A DNA stretch of 64,000 nt from Terriglobia bacterium (GTDB lineage: Bacteria; Acidobacteriota; Terriglobia; Bryobacterales; Bryobacteraceae), in assembly GCA_021325235.1 (NCBI GenBank), contig JAJPHN010000025.1, positions 310,001 to 374,000 on the forward strand. Reading direction: 5' to 3'. The notes under the pieces were generated by a model. The model did not search any database, was not told the DNA's origin, and worked only from the letters and a program-made list of their open reading frames with translations. Positions 44,936 through 61,942 of the stretch are shown one piece after another (the first letter of the stretch is position 1; the number at the start of each line of letters is the position of its first letter). The translations under genes were made by a program, and so were the position numbers.

Positions 44936-46855
<1,920 letters not shown>

Positions 46856-46914: not shown

Positions 46915-46943
46915 AGTATCGAATATGAGTCGGATATTGTCAA
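46915..46943 (-). promoter_or_regulatory. Promoter of the dnaK operon (TTGACA-N17-GATACT)
   Basis: On the minus strand a perfect -35 box TTGACA (46938-46943), a 17-base spacer and GATACT (46915-46920, 4 of 6 to TATAAT) lie about 60 bases upstream of the dnaK ATG. The -35 box overlaps the first codons of modA on the other strand. Confidence 0.65.
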
Positions 46944-46944
46944 G
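46924..46944 (-). promoter_or_regulatory. HAIR-like HspR operator overlapping the dnaK -35 box and the modA start codon
   Basis: The minus strand reads CTTGACA-N7-ACTCATA. The HAIR consensus is CTTGAGT-N7-ACTCAAG, so both halves match at 5 of 7 bases and the spacing is exact. The half-sites (46924-46930 and 46938-46944) straddle the dnaK -35 region and include the modA ATG at 46925. Match quality is moderate. Confidence 0.55.
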
Positions 46945-47650
46945 TTCTCTGCTCCTTTTTTTGAGCATATCCGTCCCACTGTGTGTTGCTCAGCAAACGT
47001 TGACCGTGGCCACGGCCGCCGACCTGGCCCCGCTCCAGCCCGACCTCCTGAAACTCTATCCTCATCTAAGGTTTGTTACCTCGGCCAGTGCCATCCTCAT
47101 GCAACAGATTGAAAACGGAGCGCCTTACGACGTTTTTCTCTCGGCCAACGCCGCCTATGTCGACCAGCTCGCCCAAAAAAGAAAAATCGAACCGGATTCG
47201 GTCGTGGTGTATGCGGTCGGCCGCCTCGGCCTACTCTGGCGTGACGGTAAGCCACGCGAGTTTAAGGACTTAGCGGATCCGGCAGTTCGTTTGGTAATTT
47301 TCGCCAATCCGAAATTGGCGCCGTACGGCCTGGCCGCGCGCCAGTCCATCGAGCATGCGGGTATCTGGGGGAAAGTTGAGTCGAAGATTGTCTACGCCGA
47401 GAACGTCCGGCAGGCGCTCGAGATCTTCGAAAGCGGCAACGGCGATGCGGTTCTGACCTCTGCCTCGCTGCTGCAAGGCAAACCTGCCCAGCTCGTTCCC
47501 AACGACTGGCACGCTCCGATCGAGCAGAAAGCCGGAGTCGTCTCCGCCAGCCCAAACCAGACCGCCGCGAGGGGATTCCTTAAGCAATTGACCGGTCCGG
47601 CGGGGCAGGCGGTCTTCGCCCGCCACGGGTTTGCCAGGCCGGCGCCATGA
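46925..47650 (+). CDS. modA: Molybdate-type ABC transporter substrate-binding protein (ModA-like)
   Basis: The 241-aa protein begins with a signal peptide (ILSSSLLLFLSISVPLCVAQ) and continues 'QTLTVATAADLAPLQPDLLK' and 'LRFVTSASAILMQQIENGAP', then 'YDVFLSANAAYVDQLAQ'. It also has 'YAVGRLGLLW', 'IFANPKLAPYGLAARQSIEH', 'IVYAENVRQALEIFESGNGD' and 'AVLTSASLL'. These are ModA segments for oxyanion binding. No modB or modC lies nearby; instead an ATP-grasp-like gene overlaps its stop by four bases. A TTG four codons downstream is an alternative start and there is no clear ribosome site at the ATG. Molybdate is the family ligand; tungstate or another anion is possible. Confidence 0.85.
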   Translation: MSRILSSSLLLFLSISVPLCVAQQTLTVATAADLAPLQPDLLKLYPHLRFVTSASAILMQQIENGAPYDVFLSANAAYVDQLAQKRKIEPDSVVVYAVGRLGLLWRDGKPREFKDLADPAVRLVIFANPKLAPYGLAARQSIEHAGIWGKVESKIVYAENVRQALEIFESGNGDAVLTSASLLQGKPAQLVPNDWHAPIEQKAGVVSASPNQTAARGFLKQLTGPAGQAVFARHGFARPAP

Positions 47651-48825
47651 ACCTGAGGCTCGGGCCGCCCCTCGGTCTCTCCGAACTCCGTGGCGTGGAA
47701 CGAGACCTGCATCTCCGCCTCGGAAAGTGGGACACTCAGGTGGGCGATACGCCCGTCCTCTCCTCCCAGCCGCTCGTCTTCCATCGCCAGGAATGGTCTC
47801 GGCTCTGTGCGGCCGCCGAACGACTCGCAGCCGAACTTTGCATGGAAGAGCAAAACGTGCTTGCCACCGAGTCCCTGCAGAGTCGTATTGGAATTCCAAA
47901 GCCCCTCCGCCCTGTCCTGGGCCGGCTTCGGGAACAGTCCGCTCGGACGATGCGCGCGCTGCGCTTCGATTTCCATCCCACTTCCGAAGGTTGGCGCATC
48001 TCGGAAGTAAACAGCGATGTTCCGGGTGGCTGGGGTGAAGCAGAGTCGCTGCCCGCTTTGTTTCAGCGCTACTATCCCGATCTCGTCCCGTCCTGCTCGC
48101 CCTTGCGCGCCTGGGGCGAGGCCGTGGCCAGACTCGCCGATGGCGGTTGCATCGCGCTACTGAGTGCTCCGGGCTTTCTCGAGGATCAGCAGGTCACGCT
48201 TGCATTCCAGCGCGAACTGAGCCGGCGCGCGGTCCGCTCCGTGCTTCTGCAGAATCCAGCCGCCCTGCGAGTAAGACAGCCACGGATTTCCGTACTTGTC
48301 CGCTTTTATCAGATCGAGTGGCTCTGCAAGCTCAGCCGGCGCACGAACTGGCCAACGTTGCTGACGAGCGCGGATTTCGCCGTTGTGAACCCCGCTGTCT
48401 CGCTCATTTCAGAGAGCAAGCGATTTCCGCTTGCATTTTCCAAAGTGGCCGAAGACTCGGCCTGGGCGGAATTCGCGCCCGAAAGCCGTGATCCGCGCGA
48501 GGTATCCGCCAACGACTGGGATAACTGGGTACTCAAGGCGGCCTACTCGAACACCGGCGATCAGGTATATCTCTGCTCCGAACTATCCAAAGGCTCGCTC
48601 GAGCGTCTGCTCCAGGCCGTTCGGCGCGATCCCCTCGCGTGGGTGGCGCAACGCCGTTTTCATACCATTCCACTCGATTCCGTGCGAGGCCCGGTGTTTC
48701 CCTGCGTGGGTGTTTTCGTAGTGAACGGACGCGCAGCCGGCGCCTACGTCCGGCTCTCACGCCGACAGGTGACCGACGGCGCCGCCCTCGAGGCCCCACT
48801 TATGATGGATCGAATCGCGCAATGA
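47647..48825 (+). CDS. Glutathionylspermidine-synthase-like (ATP-grasp) protein
   Basis: The 392-aa protein starts inside an ATGA overlap with modA. The order of motifs fits the circularly permuted ATP-grasp/GSP-synthetase fold: 'ALRFDFHPTSEGWRISEVNS' and 'DVPGGWGEAESLP' (the E-x-N-x-D-x-P-x-G metal/ATP loop, Glu120), then 'NWVLKAAYSNTGDQVYL' (Lys and Gly-rich turn), and at the end 'FVVNGRAAGAYVRLSRRQVT' matching the R-x-S...I-T part. Such enzymes ligate a carboxylate to an amine. Substrates are unknown. The next gene again overlaps by ATGA. Classification rests on motif reading; no search was run. Confidence 0.65.
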   Translation: MNLRLGPPLGLSELRGVERDLHLRLGKWDTQVGDTPVLSSQPLVFHRQEWSRLCAAAERLAAELCMEEQNVLATESLQSRIGIPKPLRPVLGRLREQSARTMRALRFDFHPTSEGWRISEVNSDVPGGWGEAESLPALFQRYYPDLVPSCSPLRAWGEAVARLADGGCIALLSAPGFLEDQQVTLAFQRELSRRAVRSVLLQNPAALRVRQPRISVLVRFYQIEWLCKLSRRTNWPTLLTSADFAVVNPAVSLISESKRFPLAFSKVAEDSAWAEFAPESRDPREVSANDWDNWVLKAAYSNTGDQVYLCSELSKGSLERLLQAVRRDPLAWVAQRRFHTIPLDSVRGPVFPCVGVFVVNGRAAGAYVRLSRRQVTDGAALEAPLMMDRIAQ

Positions 48826-49619
48826 CAATGAGCATTGAGACCGTCTATGATGCATGGCGCCCCGAGTCTTCGATCTGGAGCCGCTGGGTGAAGCCGGTTT
48901 TGTTCTCATACCTGACTCCAGGCGACCTCGTACGCGAGCCCGACGCAGAGCTCGCCCGTGAGTGGAACGTGTCTCACGAGGCGCAAACCGCAGTCCTCAT
49001 CGACCTTCCCGGCGCGGAAGGTCTCCTCGTTGCACTCGCCCTGGCTCGGGCCGGCTGGCGGCCGATTCCGGTTTACAACGCCATACCGTTCCCAACTGAT
49101 GATCCTGAAACCGACCTGCCATTATCGATCACCAGGGTTTCCCGCGTACGGGCCATCACGACCGTCGATCTCGACCCGGTCCTTCGGGCGATTGTCCGTT
49201 TCACTCCCACGCTGCTCGATTGCCATCTCCCGAACGATGCTCCTCCGGCGTTCGTGATCGACCAAAACCGCAAAGGCATGTTTCCCCGCTCACCCGGGTG
49301 TTTTGATAACCGCTCCTTTCTCTCGACGAGCGATTTTCCTTCCGCCGTGTTTCTGAAAGATCACGGCATCCGCAGCATGGCCGTGATCCGGAGCAACATG
49401 CGCCTCGATGATGACGCGCGCTCTGTTCTGTTGTCATGGCAGCAGGAACAAATTTCGATTCGCTTTCAACAATGCTGGGAAGCGTGGGATCCGCGAACCT
49501 GGAGCGTGCCGGGTCCATCGCGTCTTTCACAGTTCTGGCATCACTTTGGCCGATTGCTGGGATACCCGGATCACGAATCGGGTGCCTTCGGCGAATGGCG
49601 GCGGCCGTCGAGCAGCTGA
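48822..49619 (+). CDS. Protein of unknown function coupled to the ATP-grasp-like gene
   Basis: I chose the ATG at 48822, which overlaps the previous stop (ATGA); the longer open frame upstream is the previous gene in another frame. The product is 265 aa, acidic and soluble-looking, without signal or membrane segments. Visible segments are 'LTPGDLVREPDAELAREWNV', 'AVLIDLPGAEGLLVALALAR', 'AGWRPIPVYNAIPFPTDDPE' and 'FPSAVFLKDHGIRSMAVIRS'. I do not recognise a family. No ribosome site is seen, so translation probably depends on the upstream gene. Function with the ATP-grasp protein is implied by the tight coupling, not by sequence. Confidence 0.7.
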   Translation: MTMSIETVYDAWRPESSIWSRWVKPVLFSYLTPGDLVREPDAELAREWNVSHEAQTAVLIDLPGAEGLLVALALARAGWRPIPVYNAIPFPTDDPETDLPLSITRVSRVRAITTVDLDPVLRAIVRFTPTLLDCHLPNDAPPAFVIDQNRKGMFPRSPGCFDNRSFLSTSDFPSAVFLKDHGIRSMAVIRSNMRLDDDARSVLLSWQQEQISIRFQQCWEAWDPRTWSVPGPSRLSQFWHHFGRLLGYPDHESGAFGEWRRPSSS

Positions 49620-49643: not shown

Positions 49644-51146
49644 ATGTTTGTTTCCCGGCGCCAGGCTCTGGCGCAAGTACTCGCCACGGGTGCCGCGTTT
49701 GGCTCGTCGCTGAACCCAGAACGCAGACGCCCCAACATTCTCTTCTTCCTGACAGACGACCAGCGCCGCGACGCGATGAGCGCCTACGGGAACAAGATTC
49801 TGTACACGCCTAACCTGGACCGCATCGCGGCCTCGGGCACGCGCTTCGAGCTGGGGTTTGCTACGAACGCGCTCTGCCGGCCCTCGCGCGCCTCCATTCT
49901 GACCGGCCAGTATTCTCATTCACACCAGGTACTCACGAATGGTGACGGCCGCGATCTGCCCGGGCGCGACGGACTGCGGCGTGACCAGATCACCTTCCCA
50001 CAAATCTTTCGGCAGAACGGCTACTGGACCGCTCTCGCCGGCAAATGGCATCTCGCCAGCGAACCGGGCGGCTTCGATGAGTACGCGATCCTTCCTGGTC
50101 AGGGCATCTATCTCGATCCGCCGATGATCGTCAACGGCGCGCACGTTCAGTTTCGCGGGCACGTCGAAGACGTCGTCGGCGATCAGACCATTCACATGCT
50201 CGAGCACCGGCCCAAAGGCAAGCCGTTCTGCATGCTGTCGCATTTCAAGGCGCCCCATCGCGAATGGATTCCGGCGGCGCGCTTTGCGGATCGTTTTGCG
50301 GATGTGCACATACCGGAACCGCGTACGTTCAACGACACGCTCGCCGGGCGGCCGAAGGCAGTGCGGGATGCGGAGGACAAGCTGGTGGACTTGCCCGACT
50401 TCCGCGATCGCGGCTGCCCGGATTCACTCACCCGTGCCGAACGTAAAGAATGCAATCTGCAACAGCTTGTGAAGAATTACTACCGGGTGCTGCTCGGTGT
50501 GGATGAAAACGTTGGCCGCATTCTCGATTATCTGCAGGATGAAGGAGAACTGGAGAACACGATCGTTGTTTACACCTCGGACAACGGCTTTTTCCTCGGC
50601 GACCACGGGCTGATGGACAAGCGCCTCATGTATGAGGAATCGATTGCGGTGCCGTTTGTGATTGCGTGGCCCGCGGCCATGCCGAAGGGTGTTGTTGATG
50701 ACAAGCACCTGGTGATCAATTGCGATTTTGCGCCGACGCTGCTCGACCTGGCTGGTTTGCCCATACCGGGGTCGATGCAGGGCAAGAGTCTGAAGCCGCT
50801 GCTTGAGGGAAAAAATGTTCCCGACTGGCGCGCTTCGATTCTTTGCGAGTATTTCGAATACCCGGCGGTGCATTGCGTGCGAATGAATCGCGGCATTCGT
50901 ACGCACGACTGGAAGCTCATTCATTTCTGGCAGGATCCGCAGGAATGGGAGCTCTACAACTTGAGAGACGATCCGGGCGAGACGCGCAACCTGGCGGCCG
51001 ATCCGAAATACCGGCAGACTCTGGATGAGCTGAAGCAGCGTTTGCAGCAGCTGCGCGAAGAGACGCACGATGTGGATCTGCCGAGCGCCGACCCAGGGCC
51101 GTGCGAATTCGGCATTTCTGGCGACGGTCCCAAGCGCTCGGGCTGA
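49644..51146 (+). CDS. Sulfatase (type I, formylglycine-dependent)
   Basis: The 500-aa protein starts with a Tat/Sec-like leader (VSRRQALAQVLATGAAFGSS). 'RPNILFFLTDDQRRDAM' supplies the metal Asp pair, and 'ATNALCRPSRASILTGQYSH' carries Cys78 in C-x-P-x-R, the residue converted to formylglycine. 'PFCMLSHFKAPHREWIPAAR', 'VVYTSDNGFFLGDHGLMDKR' and 'LMYEESIAVPFVIAWPAAM' complete the active site. It should hydrolyse a sulfate ester, probably on a polysaccharide outside the cell. No sulfatase-maturase gene is next to it. Length is typical. Confidence 0.93.
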   Translation: MFVSRRQALAQVLATGAAFGSSLNPERRRPNILFFLTDDQRRDAMSAYGNKILYTPNLDRIAASGTRFELGFATNALCRPSRASILTGQYSHSHQVLTNGDGRDLPGRDGLRRDQITFPQIFRQNGYWTALAGKWHLASEPGGFDEYAILPGQGIYLDPPMIVNGAHVQFRGHVEDVVGDQTIHMLEHRPKGKPFCMLSHFKAPHREWIPAARFADRFADVHIPEPRTFNDTLAGRPKAVRDAEDKLVDLPDFRDRGCPDSLTRAERKECNLQQLVKNYYRVLLGVDENVGRILDYLQDEGELENTIVVYTSDNGFFLGDHGLMDKRLMYEESIAVPFVIAWPAAMPKGVVDDKHLVINCDFAPTLLDLAGLPIPGSMQGKSLKPLLEGKNVPDWRASILCEYFEYPAVHCVRMNRGIRTHDWKLIHFWQDPQEWELYNLRDDPGETRNLAADPKYRQTLDELKQRLQQLREETHDVDLPSADPGPCEFGISGDGPKRSG

Positions 51147-51155
51147 AGGCGCGTT

Positions 51156-52034
51156 CTAGGCTTTGGGATGGGCGCGGTCGTAGACGGCCTGCAGATCCCG
51201 CAGCGAGACCTGAGTGTACTTCTGCGTGGTGGAGAGGCGCGCATGGCCGAGCAGCTCCTGGATGGTACGCAGATCGGCGCCGTCGTTGAGGAGATGCGTG
51301 GCAAAAGCGTGACGAAAACTGTGCGGGTGCACGGTGGAATCGCCGGTTGCCACCAGGGCATAGAGTTTCACCAGCCGCCGTACCTGTCGATCGTTGAGAC
51401 GTGCGCCGCGGCTGTTGAGAAAGAGCGCGGGTTCGCCGGGTTGTGGAGCTCGGTTGGCGAGATAGCGTGTGATGGCTTCGGCTGCGCGATCCGCGATCGG
51501 GACTTCTCGTTCTTTATTCCCTTTGCCGCGCACGCGCAACCAGCCCTGCCGGAGATCGATATCGTCGAGATTGATACCAATCAACTCGCTGACACGAATC
51601 CCGCAGCCATAGAGCAGCTCGAGGATGGCGATGTCGCGTTCGGGTGCGGGCTGCTCGGCAGCGGAATCGATGAGCGTGTTCGTTTTTTCCTCGCTCATGA
51701 CCTCCGGCAAGCGCTGCTTGAGCTTGGGAAGACGCAGGCGCGCGCTTGGATTGTCTGTGATCAAACCTTCTTCGAGCAGAAACCGGTACATGGCTCGAAG
51801 CGCGGCCACTTTGCGGCGGACGCTGGTGGCTTCGAGCCCTTCGTCATAGAGAGCGGCGAGCCATTCGCGCAGCAAAGGCAGATCCAGTTGTTCGAACAGG
51901 GGTGCGCTTCCGGCGCGTTCGAAATAGGAAGCGAACTGCTCGAGATCGGAGCCGTAGCTGCGGAGCGTATGCTTCGATGCGCCGCGCCGGCCGAGCTCAG
52001 CCAGATACTTCGCAATAGCTTCGCGTATTTGCAT
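51156..52034 (-). CDS. xerC: Site-specific tyrosine recombinase XerC
   Basis: The ATG at 52034 gives 292 aa. The N-terminal SAM-like domain is 'KYLAELGRRGASKHTLRSYG'. The catalytic set is visible: Arg in 'LLYGCGIRVSELIGINLDDI', Lys in 'RVRGKGNKEREVPI', 'HPHSFRHAFATHLLNDGADL', 'IQELLGHARLSTTQKYTQVS' with the nucleophile Tyr. It resolves chromosome dimers at dif. It lies directly after trmFO with 38 bases of overlap, an order also known in Firmicutes (gid-codV). No phage features are around, so it is a housekeeping recombinase. Confidence 0.94.
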   Translation of the reverse strand: MQIREAIAKYLAELGRRGASKHTLRSYGSDLEQFASYFERAGSAPLFEQLDLPLLREWLAALYDEGLEATSVRRKVAALRAMYRFLLEEGLITDNPSARLRLPKLKQRLPEVMSEEKTNTLIDSAAEQPAPERDIAILELLYGCGIRVSELIGINLDDIDLRQGWLRVRGKGNKEREVPIADRAAEAITRYLANRAPQPGEPALFLNSRGARLNDRQVRRLVKLYALVATGDSTVHPHSFRHAFATHLLNDGADLRTIQELLGHARLSTTQKYTQVSLRDLQAVYDRAHPKA

Positions 52035-53355
52035 CAAGAAATGTTTCGAAGGCTTCTAAGGCGCGGCGGCACACCTCGGCATGCCGGGCTTTTTTGTCGT
52101 GCCGGAAGCGCGCTTTGGTGGCGTCATCGAGGGCGGGCAGCAGATCGAAGGTTATGTTGGCGGGTTGGAAATTGCGGGCGTCGGCCTGCGTAATGTAGTG
52201 AGTCAGGCTGCCGAGCGCGGTTTGGCGCGGAAACGTCGAGGGCTCCCCGCGGCTCGCCAGCGCGGCCGCATTCCGCCCGGCAAGCAAACCGGTGGCGATC
52301 GATTCGGCGTATCCTTCGACCCCGCAGATCTGGCCCGCGAAGAAGACGCACGGTTCGCGTTTCAATTGCAGCGTGGCATCGAGCAGCGCGGGTGAATTGA
52401 TGTAGGTATTGCGATGCATCTGGCCGAAGCGCAGGAATTCGGCGTTTTCCAATCCGGGAATAAGGCGGAATACCCGCGCCTGATCGCCGAAGCGCATGTG
52501 GTTCTGAAAGCCGACCAGATTGTAGCTATCGGCGCGCTGATTCTCCTGGCGCAACTGCAGGGCGGCGTAGGGCCAGCGACCGGTACGCGGATCGGTCAGC
52601 CCGGCTGCTTTCATGGGTCCGAAACGAAGGGTCTGCGGGCCGCGGCGTGCGATCTCTTCGACGGGCAGGCAGGCTTCGAAATACGGCGTCTGATCTTCTG
52701 CGATATGCGGTTCGTAACGCTCGGCCTCGAGCAGCGCAGCGACGAAGCGGTCGTATTGCGGCTTGTCGAGCGGGCAATTGATGTAGTCGTTGCCGCCATC
52801 GAGCGACTTGTTGTAGCGGGAAGCGCGGAAGGCGATGGACATATCGACCGAATCGGCCGCTACGATTGGGCTGATGCTGTCGTAGAAGAAGAGTCGCTCG
52901 GAACCGGTGAGCCGGCTGATTTCTGCGGCGAGCGCATCGCTGGTGAGCGGACCGGAGGCGATGATGACGATGCCGGAATCGGGGATCTGAGTGACTTCTT
53001 CGCGGCGAATTTCGATATTGCGGTGTGTTTCGATGGCGCGGGTAATCGCGCGCGAGAAGAGTTCGCGATCGACCGTCAGGGCGTGACCGCCAGGGACGCG
53101 CGATTGGTCGGCGGCGCGCAACAGCAGCGATCCAAGCCGGCGCGCCTCCTGCTTCAGCAGCCAGGGTGCGGAGTTTAGCTGCTCGCTCTTGAGCGAGTTA
53201 CTGCAGACGAGTTCGCCGAAATCGTCGGTCTTGTGCGCGGGGGTGCGTTTGTGCGGACGCATCTCATAGAGCACGACATGAGCGCCTGCTTCGGCGGCGT
53301 GGAATGCCGCTTCGCAGCCGGCGAGTCCCGCGCCGATGATGTGGATGGTCTGCAA
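51997..53355 (-). CDS. trmFO: Methylenetetrahydrofolate--tRNA-(uracil-5-)-methyltransferase TrmFO
   Basis: The 452-aa protein has the FAD-binding start 'IHIIGAGLAGCEAAFHAAEA', then 'TDDFGELVCSNSLKSEQLNS' (a diagnostic TrmFO block), 'FRASRYNKSLDGGNDYINCP', 'FFAGQICGVEGYAESIATGL' and 'GSLTHYITQA'. It makes ribothymidine at U54 of tRNA using methylene-THF and FADH2. Its end overlaps the xerC start. Family length is normal. Confidence 0.97.
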   Translation of the reverse strand: MQTIHIIGAGLAGCEAAFHAAEAGAHVVLYEMRPHKRTPAHKTDDFGELVCSNSLKSEQLNSAPWLLKQEARRLGSLLLRAADQSRVPGGHALTVDRELFSRAITRAIETHRNIEIRREEVTQIPDSGIVIIASGPLTSDALAAEISRLTGSERLFFYDSISPIVAADSVDMSIAFRASRYNKSLDGGNDYINCPLDKPQYDRFVAALLEAERYEPHIAEDQTPYFEACLPVEEIARRGPQTLRFGPMKAAGLTDPRTGRWPYAALQLRQENQRADSYNLVGFQNHMRFGDQARVFRLIPGLENAEFLRFGQMHRNTYINSPALLDATLQLKREPCVFFAGQICGVEGYAESIATGLLAGRNAAALASRGEPSTFPRQTALGSLTHYITQADARNFQPANITFDLLPALDDATKARFRHDKKARHAEVCRRALEAFETFLDANTRSYCEVSG

Positions 53356-53363
53356 ACTTCAGT

Positions 53364-54125
53364 TTAGAATTTGTCCGGCGCATCTCTCAATCGCAACCGG
53401 ATCAGGAGATCGTTGAGAGCGGCGCGGCTGCGTGGCTCATCGGGCAGGGTAGACCGTTGAGCTGCTTCGGCCAATTCGCCGCGTAGCTGGCTGACTCGCT
53501 TTTCGTGCAGATTGATTTCGGCCTCGCTTAGCTGCTCGTGTTCCGATCCTGATGTCTTGCGCTCAATCAACTCAGCCAGGCCGGGTGAAGGCCGGGTCTC
53601 ATTCAAACGCGGCAGATTCGCCTCCACCTCACCCGTCCGCATCAGATGAATTCCGGTGAGCAATACTCGATACGTATACAAGAGCGGCTTCAGGCGTGGA
53701 GGACTCTTTTGAACCAGCCGCCATTGCGTGTCCGCGAAACCGAGATAGTGGTGAGCATGATGGCGCGTGATGCAGCCTTGGGCGATGTCCTTCAGTTCCT
53801 CGTGCTCGGGCATGGCGCGCACTACCAGAGGCGAGTATAGTTGCTCCAGTACATAGCCGTTACGCTTCAGGAGCATTTCGAAAAATTTCAAGATGTCGTG
53901 GGTGACGTAATCGATCTCGACGCCGTCGCGAACGGTGCTGAGCTCTAGCGTTTCCTTCTTCGGCAATATGGCGAGCGCTTCGGAAGCAGGTAGTATGTGC
54001 GCGCCTCGCAGATCGTAATCCGAATCCGGTGAAGCAAACCCGTAAAGATGAGCGCCGCTGATGGTTGCAAACAGCAAAGGATACGGATGGTGAGCGATTT
54101 CGTCGTGTAGCAGGTCGTGTCTCAT
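53364..54125 (-). CDS. Predicted nucleotidyltransferase (YcgL/COG3541-type), second of a pair
   Basis: The 253-aa protein has the polymerase-beta-type site 'TISGAHLYGFASPDSDYDLR' (G-S/A ... D-x-D) and 'VEIDYVTHDILKFFEMLLKR', 'GYVLEQLYSPLVV'. This pattern belongs to the predicted nucleotidyltransferase family of COG3541. Its target is not known. The start overlaps the stop of the preceding homologous gene by 4 bases (54122-54125). The two proteins share the same fold but are diverged. Its end is 9 bases from the trmFO start, so readthrough between them is likely. Confidence 0.8.
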   Translation of the reverse strand: MRHDLLHDEIAHHPYPLLFATISGAHLYGFASPDSDYDLRGAHILPASEALAILPKKETLELSTVRDGVEIDYVTHDILKFFEMLLKRNGYVLEQLYSPLVVRAMPEHEELKDIAQGCITRHHAHHYLGFADTQWRLVQKSPPRLKPLLYTYRVLLTGIHLMRTGEVEANLPRLNETRPSPGLAELIERKTSGSEHEQLSEAEINLHEKRVSQLRGELAEAAQRSTLPDEPRSRAALNDLLIRLRLRDAPDKF

Positions 54126-54817
54126 CTGGAAATGTAGTGGTCTGAGGCCGCGAGCCGACGTGCTCGCAGCAGCAGTTCATTGGCAGCAGAATAATCGGGA
54201 TTCAGCGGAAGTTTCGTATGCCGGAAGGCTTGATCGAGTTCTTGATGCAGAGCCAGCCGCCAGGCCTCTACTGCATCCCATGGCATCTGACCGTGGCGGA
54301 TGGCGAGGAGTTCTTGGCGGTGCTCATCCATGCGCAAGTCGACAAAGCCGTGCCGCAGAATGGCTGCTCCGGAGAGCAGAAGCCGCATCAGGTGCATGAC
54401 GTGTTTCCAACGGATTTGCCCTTGGTTGCGCAGATCCCGCTCGATTTTCTTGAATTGCGAGAGCACATAGGCGTTGTAGGTTTGGTGCACACGCTGGGAG
54501 AGGAAAATATCGCGCCGGGCGAGGATCTCGATGGCAATCGGTTCGGCCGTTTCGACCAGCGGTGAATAGAGGCACTCCAGCACATTCGGGTTGGCCTTCA
54601 AGGCGAGGCGAATGAATTTCGCAATTTCCCAGTACACTTCTTCTTCAGCAGTTTCGATCTGTTCGGGGACACCAGCGAGCGACCACTGCAAGTCTGCGGG
54701 CGGCAGAAAGAATCCGCGGCGGTCGGTATCGGAGTCGGCCGTTGCCAGGCCATGCGCCTGGGAGCCGACGACGCAGCGGTAGACGACAAACGGAAGAAGC
54801 TGGCTGGTCTCGGCCAT
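54122..54817 (-). CDS. Predicted nucleotidyltransferase (YcgL/COG3541-type), first of a pair
   Basis: The ATG at 54817 gives 231 aa; the open frame continues to 54916 without a good start. 'RCVVGSQAHGLATADSDTDR' is the G-S...D-x-D catalytic site and 'IETAEEEVYWEIAKFIRLAL' with 'NPNVLECLYSPLVET' matches the same family as the next gene. 'GFFLPPADLQWSLAG' is also typical. Pairs of this family are sometimes found together; function is unknown, with tRNA, protein or small-molecule nucleotidylation all possible. Confidence 0.8.
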   Translation of the reverse strand: MAETSQLLPFVVYRCVVGSQAHGLATADSDTDRRGFFLPPADLQWSLAGVPEQIETAEEEVYWEIAKFIRLALKANPNVLECLYSPLVETAEPIAIEILARRDIFLSQRVHQTYNAYVLSQFKKIERDLRNQGQIRWKHVMHLMRLLLSGAAILRHGFVDLRMDEHRQELLAIRHGQMPWDAVEAWRLALHQELDQAFRHTKLPLNPDYSAANELLLRARRLAASDHYISR

Positions 54818-54860
54818 TTCGGGAAAGGTGCTCACTTCCTGCTTATGTGCCAGCCGAATG

Positions 54861-56360
<1,500 letters not shown>

Positions 56361-56363
56361 ACG

Positions 56364-56645
56364 TCAGCGCCGCGCGATACGCCGCGCCGAAAGGAAAGAA
56401 GTGAGAGAGAAGAAGGCCATGACAGCGCCGAAGAAGATCGCGCCGATCAGGCCGGCCTGGTTGTCGCGATGCTGGTACGCCCAGGCGAACAGATACAGCG
56501 CGAGTACGCCGAATACACCGCCGATCGCCTGGTTCCAGATGACGCGCGCGGGGCGAACGACTTCGGGGACGACGTGGGTAGCGAACTTGCGTGCGTGTTC
56601 GGCTTTGACGGTCCTGGCGATTTTTACGGCGTCAGCGAGTTTCAT
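56364..56645 (-). CDS. Small membrane protein, function unknown
   Basis: The 93-aa protein has a basic, helical N-terminus (MKLADAVKIARTVKAEHARK) and two membrane helices (AIGGVFGVLALYLFAWAY and AGLIGAIFFGAVMAFFSLTS) with a basic end (SARRIARR). It begins 14 bases inside the end of the Uma2 gene and ends 3 bases before the mutase gene stop codon's partner region, so it is likely in the same transcript as the mutase. No family is recognised. Confidence 0.65.
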   Translation of the reverse strand: MKLADAVKIARTVKAEHARKFATHVVPEVVRPARVIWNQAIGGVFGVLALYLFAWAYQHRDNQAGLIGAIFFGAVMAFFSLTSFLSARRIARR

Positions 56646-57186
56646 GATTACCGAGTTGCGCGTCCGTTTCGGTGAAAATTTCGCTTAAGGGTATGCTGAT
56701 CTCACTGTTTCCGGAACCGGCCGTCAAAGAGTCCGTAATGCTGACAGGAATCGGTCTCGGGTTACCAATCGACATTTGATGAGCATTCCTTTTTTCCGGA
56801 TCGACAATCCAAACCGAGCCAATTCCCCAATCCAGATAATGCGCCGCTTTCTTGAACGTGTCGATCAAGTTATCACCCGGAGAGAGGATTTCCACACACA
56901 AATCGATGGGCTCCTTCGGGTATGGGCTCCGAAAAGGACCGGGATTGCCGGCTACATCCGGCACCGGATAGGCAACTTTCGAGATCTTCAGTCGAAGTTC
57001 GGTGGCCGATCTCCAACCGCGGCGTGCAAATAGCATTGCGATGACCCATTGCATTACGCTGTGCGTGAGAGTGGGCATCGATTTCTGAATGGCTTCACCG
57101 TACCAGAATTCGAAATATGGCTTAACGCTGTCGGAATAAAGCTGCTCGAACTGCGCGGGAGTGAGGAAGGTATGCGCGGCGGCCAT
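56632..57186 (-). CDS. Uma2-family (DUF820) PD-(D/E)XK-like protein
   Basis: I chose the ATG at 57186; the longer frame to 57306 would run through the tRNA gene antisense and is rejected. The 184-aa product has 'FLTPAQFEQLYSDSVKPYFE', 'SVMQWVIAMLFARRGWRSAT', 'VAYPVPDVAG' and 'EPIDLCVEILSPGDNLIDTF' then 'KKAAHYLDWGIGSVWIVDPE', which is the Uma2 pattern with the nuclease-like D...E-x-L core. These genes are very abundant in Acidobacteriota and Cyanobacteria; the function is unproven. Confidence 0.83.
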   Translation of the reverse strand: MAAAHTFLTPAQFEQLYSDSVKPYFEFWYGEAIQKSMPTLTHSVMQWVIAMLFARRGWRSATELRLKISKVAYPVPDVAGNPGPFRSPYPKEPIDLCVEILSPGDNLIDTFKKAAHYLDWGIGSVWIVDPEKRNAHQMSIGNPRPIPVSITDSLTAGSGNSEISIPLSEIFTETDAQLGNHETR

Positions 57187-57236
57187 GTCGGAAGCGCTCC
57201 AGATCTCAGTATCGCCGATGCTGGGGAGAGGGTCTT

Positions 57237-57312
57237 TGGTGGACCTGGAGAGATTCGAACTCTCGACCTCTTCCATGCCATGGAAGCGCGCTCCCAACTG
57301 CGCCACAGGCCC
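57237..57312 (-). tRNA. tRNA-Ala (anticodon GGC), CCA encoded
   Basis: The minus strand folds as a complete 76-base cloverleaf: acceptor GGGCCTG/CAGGTCC, D arm GCGC/GCGC, anticodon stem CTTCC/GGAAG with loop ATGGCAT, T arm GAGAG-TTCGAAT-CTCTC, discriminator A and encoded CCA. The acceptor contains the G3-U70 pair that identifies alanine tRNAs, confirming the anticodon reading. Confidence 0.97.
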
Positions 57313-61357: not shown

Positions 61358-61942
61358 ATGTTCACCAGTGTGTGCGTCTTTTGCGGATCAAACCCTGGTA
61401 CGGGGGAGGTTTACGCACAGGCGGCGAAACGGATGGGCCGATTGCTGGCCGAGCGTGGACTGGAACTCGTTTACGGCGGCAGCAAGCTGGGGTTGATGGG
61501 CATTCTGGCCGATGCGTGTTTAGAAGCGGGCGGCCGGGTGGTGGGCGTGATTCCGCGCGCACTGGTCGAGAAAGAAATTGCGCACACCGGGATTTCGGAA
61601 TTGCACAGCGTGGATTCGATGCACGCGCGGAAGGCGCTGATGGCCGATAAGGCGGATGCGTTTATCGCAATGCCGGGCGGATACGGGACATGGGAAGAGT
61701 TTTGCGAAGTGCTCACCTGGTCGCAGCTCGGTCTGCAGCGCAAGCCGTGCGGGGTATTGAACGTGAACGGCTATTACGAACCGATGCTGGCGATGGCGGA
61801 TCGGGCTGTGGCAGAGGGTTTTCTGAAGAGCGAGCACCGGACGCTGCTGCTGGCGGAAACTGATCCGGAGGAGTTATTGAAGCGGCTCGAGCGTGTTCCG
61901 GTACCGGCGCTAGAAAAGTGGATCGATCGCAGAAACCGATAA
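61358..61942 (+). CDS. LOG-family protein (TIGR00730, YgdH/cytokinin-activating-type hydrolase)
   Basis: The 194-aa protein has 'VCVFCGSNPGTGEVYAQAAK', 'ELVYGGSKLGLMGILADACL', 'HARKALMADKADAFIAMPGG' and the diagnostic 'PGGYGTWEEFCEVLTWSQLG'. Members release the base from nucleoside monophosphates; the bacterial role is uncertain. The length fits family standard. Confidence 0.95.
   Translation: MFTSVCVFCGSNPGTGEVYAQAAKRMGRLLAERGLELVYGGSKLGLMGILADACLEAGGRVVGVIPRALVEKEIAHTGISELHSVDSMHARKALMADKADAFIAMPGGYGTWEEFCEVLTWSQLGLQRKPCGVLNVNGYYEPMLAMADRAVAEGFLKSEHRTLLLAETDPEELLKRLERVPVPALEKWIDRRNR

Follow-up and report, generated by a model that had tools for sequence, protein, structure and literature searches.

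We analysed a 64,000-nucleotide stretch of DNA from a Terriglobia bacterium (the window; GenBank assembly GCA_021325235.1, contig JAJPHN010000025.1, positions 310,001 to 374,000 of the forward strand), in which modA, the gene for a molybdate-binding protein, is followed by genes for an ATP-grasp ligase and for a protein of 265 amino acids (aa), here called the partner. The features of this locus and its flanks are given below in window positions.

44936..46855, minus strand: dnaK, flanking gene and conserved neighbour of modA (PF00012, 901 bits).
46925..47650, plus strand: modA, molybdate-binding protein (241 aa; TIGR01256, 133.5 bits), next to dnaK and judged from synteny to lie outside the ligase-partner pair.
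47647..48825, plus strand: circularly permuted ATP-grasp ligase of the YgiC/GspS type (392 aa; PF03738, 44.6 bits).
48822..49619, plus strand: partner protein, an alpha/beta domain of an unnamed family, short type (265 aa; from the family alignment and models).
49575..49616, plus strand: the partner's last 14 codons, ESGAFGEWRRPSSS, a vestige or variant form of the GFG...Gly tail typical of the family.
49644..51146, plus strand: sulfatase gene (PF00884, 179 bits), located, like the pair, in the extra segment that separates modA from xerD.
51156..52037, minus strand: xerD-like recombinase gene, flanking (PF00589).

The open reading frames (ORFs) of modA, ligase and partner are all intact, and a sequence-only reading of the window had correctly noted that they overlap twice by ATGA (47647-47650 and 48822-48825), although it called them fused, whereas they overlap and are not fused. 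From the overlaps we infer that the three genes would be translated as one unit. That reading had further proposed that they form one module and had named lack of co-conservation as what would refute this. Judged in that way, the ligase and the partner proved to be co-conserved (in 26 of 27 partner-bearing genomes of one class), but modA did not share in this, as the pair is absent from the 12 readable modA loci of relatives.

A search of 247 genomes of the phylum for the ligase gave homologues in 9, the window's own included, and four of the other eight (G148, G160, G171 and G229; G and L numbers are our handles for genomes and loci) encode a homologue of the third protein directly downstream of the ligase. 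A partner profile gave matches in 14 of 396 genomes, 13 of them credible, and all 13 of these genomes have a ligase relative; the match in G283 was dropped as spurious (E 2.3e-4, five in-frame stops, no ligase). Of the 162 genomes of the class of G160, 27 have the partner; 26 of these 27, but none of the 135 partner-less genomes, also have the ligase (E <= 1e-30). In the class of G444 the partner was found in 1 of 193 genomes. With the window partner sequence alone as query, there was no match in 99 relatives (including 16 congeners), genome contigs, plasmids or viral contigs, whereas the family profile and closer members did reach partner relatives, the named records of which are Blastocatellia, Pyrinomonadaceae and “Acidobacteria bacterium” metagenome-assembled genomes. 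By their coordinates, ligase and partner lie side by side in 8 of the 26 genomes, ~40 kb apart in G331 and on separate contigs in 17, a figure to be read with the caution that fragmented assemblies could hide true adjacency; three of the 17 are two-contig assemblies (G193, G220 and G262). Furthermore, ligase and partner trees built for 14 chosen pairs mirror one another (r 0.95, a value that none of 2000 permutations reached), and the window and G444 copies are sisters in both (support 0.999). Because nearly all partner-bearing genomes hold the ligase and the two trees mirror each other, we concluded from these comparisons that ligase and partner are a real pair of their own across distantly related bacteria. 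The partner family, outlined here, has no Pfam or NCBIfam name.

The first gene had been taken for modA, and profile searches bore this out (133.5 bits against a TIGR01256 cut-off of 62.5; PF13531, 159 bits). A ModA search of 60 genomes (the window's own and 59 relatives) gave a match in 48, with a single match in the window's genome. We read 13 modA loci of relatives, 10 from congeners and 3 from other genera of the same family, and found that dnaK adjoins modA in all 13. The downstream side was readable in 12 (the contig of L108 stops at modA), and neither ligase, partner nor sulfatase had a match at E <= 1e-6 in any of the 13. In four relative loci (L101, L106, L107 and L112) xerD directly follows modA, and this junction is the position at which the window carries the ligase, partner and sulfatase genes; in L109 xerD lies ~5 kb from modA, and in the remaining loci it falls outside the stretch read. 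Among the pair loci that we gathered (span, 3 to 19 kb), ModA was seen only in those from the window's own genome. There is no modB or modC beside modA in the window, as the sequence-only reading had said, but this does not hold genome-wide: a modB (229.9 bits; cut-off, 182.6) lies on another contig (G000:C5:136814-137416), where an ABC ATPase gene overlaps it. Since modA stands beside dnaK without the pair in relatives and the genome has this modB and ABC ATPase on C5, modA most simply serves that transporter.

On this synteny, a three-gene module with ModA was rejected. Two ATGA overlaps make cotranslation plausible in the window genome and are what would speak for ModA, ligase and third protein acting as an uptake or anion-sensing module; however, with modA beside dnaK and without the pair in relatives, pair loci elsewhere lacking ModA, and modB with an ABC ATPase elsewhere in a genome that has only one ModA match, we consider such a module extremely improbable, and the earlier suggestion of uptake plus ligation or of anion sensing is unsupported, modA being separate from the pair in relatives. 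Taken together, these gene orders showed modA to be an unrelated, independent neighbour of the ligase-partner pair; the pair was either added behind modA in the window genome or lost from the relatives.

The sulfatase gene, of the SGSH_C type and without a match in the 13 relative loci, starts 24 bases past the partner gene on the same strand, and it may have arrived together with the pair. The GC content at third codon positions (GC3) of ligase and partner resembles that of neighbouring genes, and in base composition the extra segment showed no difference that would point to transfer.

The second protein had been described as an ATP-grasp enzyme resembling glutathionylspermidine synthetase, and this assignment held, its PF03738 (GSP_synth) score of 44.6 bits lying above the curated cut-off of 29.3. 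The best solved relatives of the ligase family profile are YgiC (7uk8; E 7.5e-6) and GspS (2io7; E 1.5e-5). Nine ligase residues (R106, D108, E120, N122, D124, K258, K297, Q335 and R369) are identical in YgiC, and R106, D108, E120, N122, K258 and K297 are also invariant over all eight rows of the ligase alignment (A9); we take these conserved Arg, Asp, Glu and Asn residues and two Lys residues to be active-site residues. RefSeq labels YgiC and YjfC peptide-spermidine ligases, a naming that reportedly stems from Pederick et al. 2023 (Biochemistry 62:899). PMC12568646 and PMC10948618 cite that paper, the former terming the two proteins peptidylpolyamine synthetases, and PMC12506659 states that YgiC lacks glutathionylspermidine synthase activity.

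The 265-aa protein had been called unrecognised, and it remained so, with no Pfam or NCBIfam match at E values up to 1; seven further members had no match above cut-off. In Proteobacteria, ligases of this kind are accompanied by DUF1190 proteins (YgiB with YgiC, YjfM with YjfC). PF06693, the DUF1190 family, was matched neither by the window partner (E up to 1) nor by the seven others (E up to 5), and by this profile test the partner is not a DUF1190 member. What most partners do resemble in the DUF1190 proteins is the C terminus. We scored two tail features, defined in this analysis and not taken from a publication: GFG or GYG within the last 60 residues and a terminal Gly. Among 32 distinct partners (L064 and L027 included), 29 have the motif, 29 the terminal Gly and 28 both; among eight DUF1190 proteins (YgiB, YjfM and six picked from 107 matching plasmid records) the counts are 8, 7 and 7; and among 1010 other ORFs (150 aa or longer) from the loci gathered they are 38, 78 and 2. 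These counts serve as orientation and should not be read as probabilities, since the 1010 include non-genes and the 32 partners are relatives. Shuffling in place left the motif in a mean of 8.8 (maximum, 19) partners versus 29 of 32 observed and in a mean of 0.8 (maximum, 4) DUF1190 proteins versus 8 of 8. L064 was aligned in A5 but not in A6 or A8, as it diverges from the other members ahead of the tail, probably through a frameshift. In 1.5-kb flanks of paralogous ligases we found no convincing tail-bearing neighbour apart from G444's own partner, and neither the partner family nor the shared tail was met in the titles and abstracts searched, subscription papers excluded.

Such tails might instead be a general trait of Gly-rich, membrane-anchored proteins, unconnected to the ligase, as their low complexity and the lack of significant hhalign likeness between them would allow. 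We regard this as decidedly unlikely, given that both features coincide in only 2 of the 1010 other ORFs and that two unrelated families sharing the tail both accompany the same kind of ligase.

The domain that bears the tail was modelled on the G160 member, giving a confident alpha/beta prediction (predicted local distance difference test [pLDDT], 91.7; predicted template modelling score [pTM], 0.88); the model of the window partner was less confident (pLDDT, 72.3; pTM, 0.70). Against solved structures, Foldseek gave no clear match (best E, 0.43 for the window model and 0.038 for the family model), and nor did VIA (best Z, 4.8 over 118 residues at a root mean square deviation of 4.0 and 5.6 over 127 residues at 4.4, respectively); among the matches listed, none pointed to a recognisable enzyme fold. 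Asp, Arg and Asn columns are invariant in the 29-row family alignment, and so well conserved a domain, with its confident model, could be an enzyme that cooperates with the ligase in processing a free peptide or small molecule, with the tail serving only as linker or surface anchor. This explanation, which we take seriously but think unlikely, leaves unaccounted for the tails of the same kind on unrelated DUF1190 proteins beside YgiC-type ligases.

Long partners carry an N-terminal extension, often with SRR ahead of a hydrophobic stretch, and the N terminus of the G171 partner resembles a lipoprotein start (both judged by eye). Most partners have such an extension, and it resembles a membrane anchor. 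Twin-arginine translocation of the long partners was considered and rejected, the TAT model scoring below cut-off (11.5 versus 16.7) in the sole matching member, and a crude hydrophobicity count, which did not separate long from short partners, was not used. The window and G444 partners start at the domain itself and have no such extension.

Gene neighbourhoods were compared with those of DUF1190. The E. coli order DUF350, DUF1190, ligase (yjfL, yjfM, yjfC) recurs in Rhizobium; in Sulfitobacter and Loktanella a DUF1190 gene lies downstream of a GspS-family gene, and in the other three of the six plasmid DUF1190 stretches the neighbours are unannotated. DUF1190 itself was found in 0 of 396 Acidobacteriota genomes. 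We searched for DUF350 in 40 chosen genomes, 21 of the 31 known partner bearers and 19 without the partner, and of the 21, 7 (G171, G229, G331, G445, G670, G672 and G685) have it no more than 2 kb from ligase or partner and 5 have it elsewhere in the genome; it was not found in 9, including the window's genome. In G444, a hydrophobic protein encoded directly upstream of the ligase (L072, 7992-9104, minus strand) has a subthreshold DUF350 match (18.1 bits; cut-off, 26) and is perhaps a divergent DUF350. PMC11237479 describes PspA-linked operons that contain a GspS-related ATP-grasp protein, DUF350 and DUF1190, and in which band-7 proteins likewise occur. In G148, a Band_7/SPFH gene (PF01145, 51.4 bits) adjoins the ligase divergently (L015, 10445-11977, plus strand). 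In three Blastocatellia loci (L060, 12564-13205; L063, 9472-10098; L074, 2335-2967) the pair is followed downstream by a gene for a small, related-looking protein, which in L063 and L074 comes immediately after the partner gene; the L060 copy matches DUF1517 (32.5 bits).

The explanation that we favour, at about an even chance, is that ligase and partner are a ligase-substrate pair working like YgiB-YgiC, with the tail borne by another domain. The pair, which in the window genome sits between modA and xerD and does so in none of the relatives read, would comprise a GspS/YgiC-type ligase that uses ATP to activate a C-terminal carboxylate for coupling to an amine, most likely a polyamine such as spermidine; the physiological substrate would be the partner's Gly-rich C-terminal tail. 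In most members, the N-terminal extension resembling a membrane anchor suggests an envelope protein bearing a C-terminal amine as the product. The setting would parallel that of the proteobacterial DUF1190 proteins YgiB/YjfM with YgiC/YjfC, often with a DUF350 gene nearby, and the window's reduced copy would presumably still work, in the cytoplasm.

Several observations weigh against this explanation. The 27 partner-bearing genomes are mutually related, which inflates both the co-occurrence and the tree correlation, and one of them, G747 (89% complete), carries the partner without the ligase. DUF350 is absent from the vicinity in 14 of the 21 pair-bearing genomes tested, its presence does not track that of the pair (12 of 21 versus 9 of 19), and the window genome (G000) has no DUF350 match at E <= 1e-3. 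The hhalign comparison of partner with DUF1190 tails was not significant (probability, 0.7%), which reduces the likeness to a short motif in Gly-rich sequence that could reflect convergence of composition, although the motif was much rarer in the shuffled tails. Finally, the window partner has GAFG and ends in Ser and so shows neither tail feature. As both of these features, the N-terminal extension and DUF350 are all missing, the ligase-substrate reading is weaker for the window's own copy.

The same absences, together with the failure to find the pair in 16 congeners, would suit a decaying or idle copy of the system. We think this quite improbable for the window pair: both frames are open, the overlaps are tight, GC3 is neighbour-like and the ligase keeps its catalytic-type residues. 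Moreover, the G444 partner, sister of the window copy and likewise short, retains GGFG and a terminal Gly, implying that shortness is shared and not recent.

Returning to the ligase-substrate explanation, we propose, more tentatively, that GFG...Gly may be a portable tag, present on at least two unrelated families, for C-terminal polyamine conjugation by YgiC-type ligases. If so, there would be a bacterial protein-polyamine conjugation system that uses DUF1190 in Proteobacteria and the new partner family in Acidobacteriota. As far as the accessible parts of the literature go, the native substrate of YgiC/YjfC is not named, and a second family, unrelated to DUF1190, that ends in a similar tail and stays linked to this type of ligase even when encoded far from it points to the partner's C terminus as the substrate.

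Elsewhere in the window, two tandem overlapping genes on the minus strand (53364-54125 and 54122-54916) both match PF10127 (RlaP, RNA repair pathway DNA polymerase beta family) and are flanked by a GIDA-type gene (51997-53355) and a methylmalonyl-CoA mutase gene (54861-56360). There is also a putative Uma2-type endonuclease gene (56632-57306, minus strand; PF05685) and a gene for a PF03641 “possible lysine decarboxylase” protein that matches SLOG too (61358-61942, plus strand).

Compared with known systems, the locus shares with the ModABC molybdate transporter a true ModA, encoded upstream, but ModB and the ABC ATPase are encoded on another contig, and the ModA of relatives is unlinked to the pair. 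With the E. coli glutathionylspermidine synthetase (GspS domain) the ligase shares the ATP-grasp fold family and conserved residues; it differs in having no amidase domain and in that its nearest solved relative is YgiC, which, according to PMC12506659, is devoid of that synthase activity. The PspA-linked operons, as described in PMC11237479, similarly combine the ligase with DUF350 and a lipoprotein, although our partner comes from another family. From E. coli ygiB-ygiC and yjfL-yjfM-yjfC the pair differs in that the partner domain is not DUF1190 and, in the window copy, in the altered tail, the missing N-terminal extension and a genome in which no DUF350 was found. What it has in common with them is a GspS-related ATP-grasp ligase encoded with a protein that ends in a GFG/GYG...Gly tail and, as in yjf, a nearby DUF350 gene in 7 of the 21 Acidobacteriota genomes tested.

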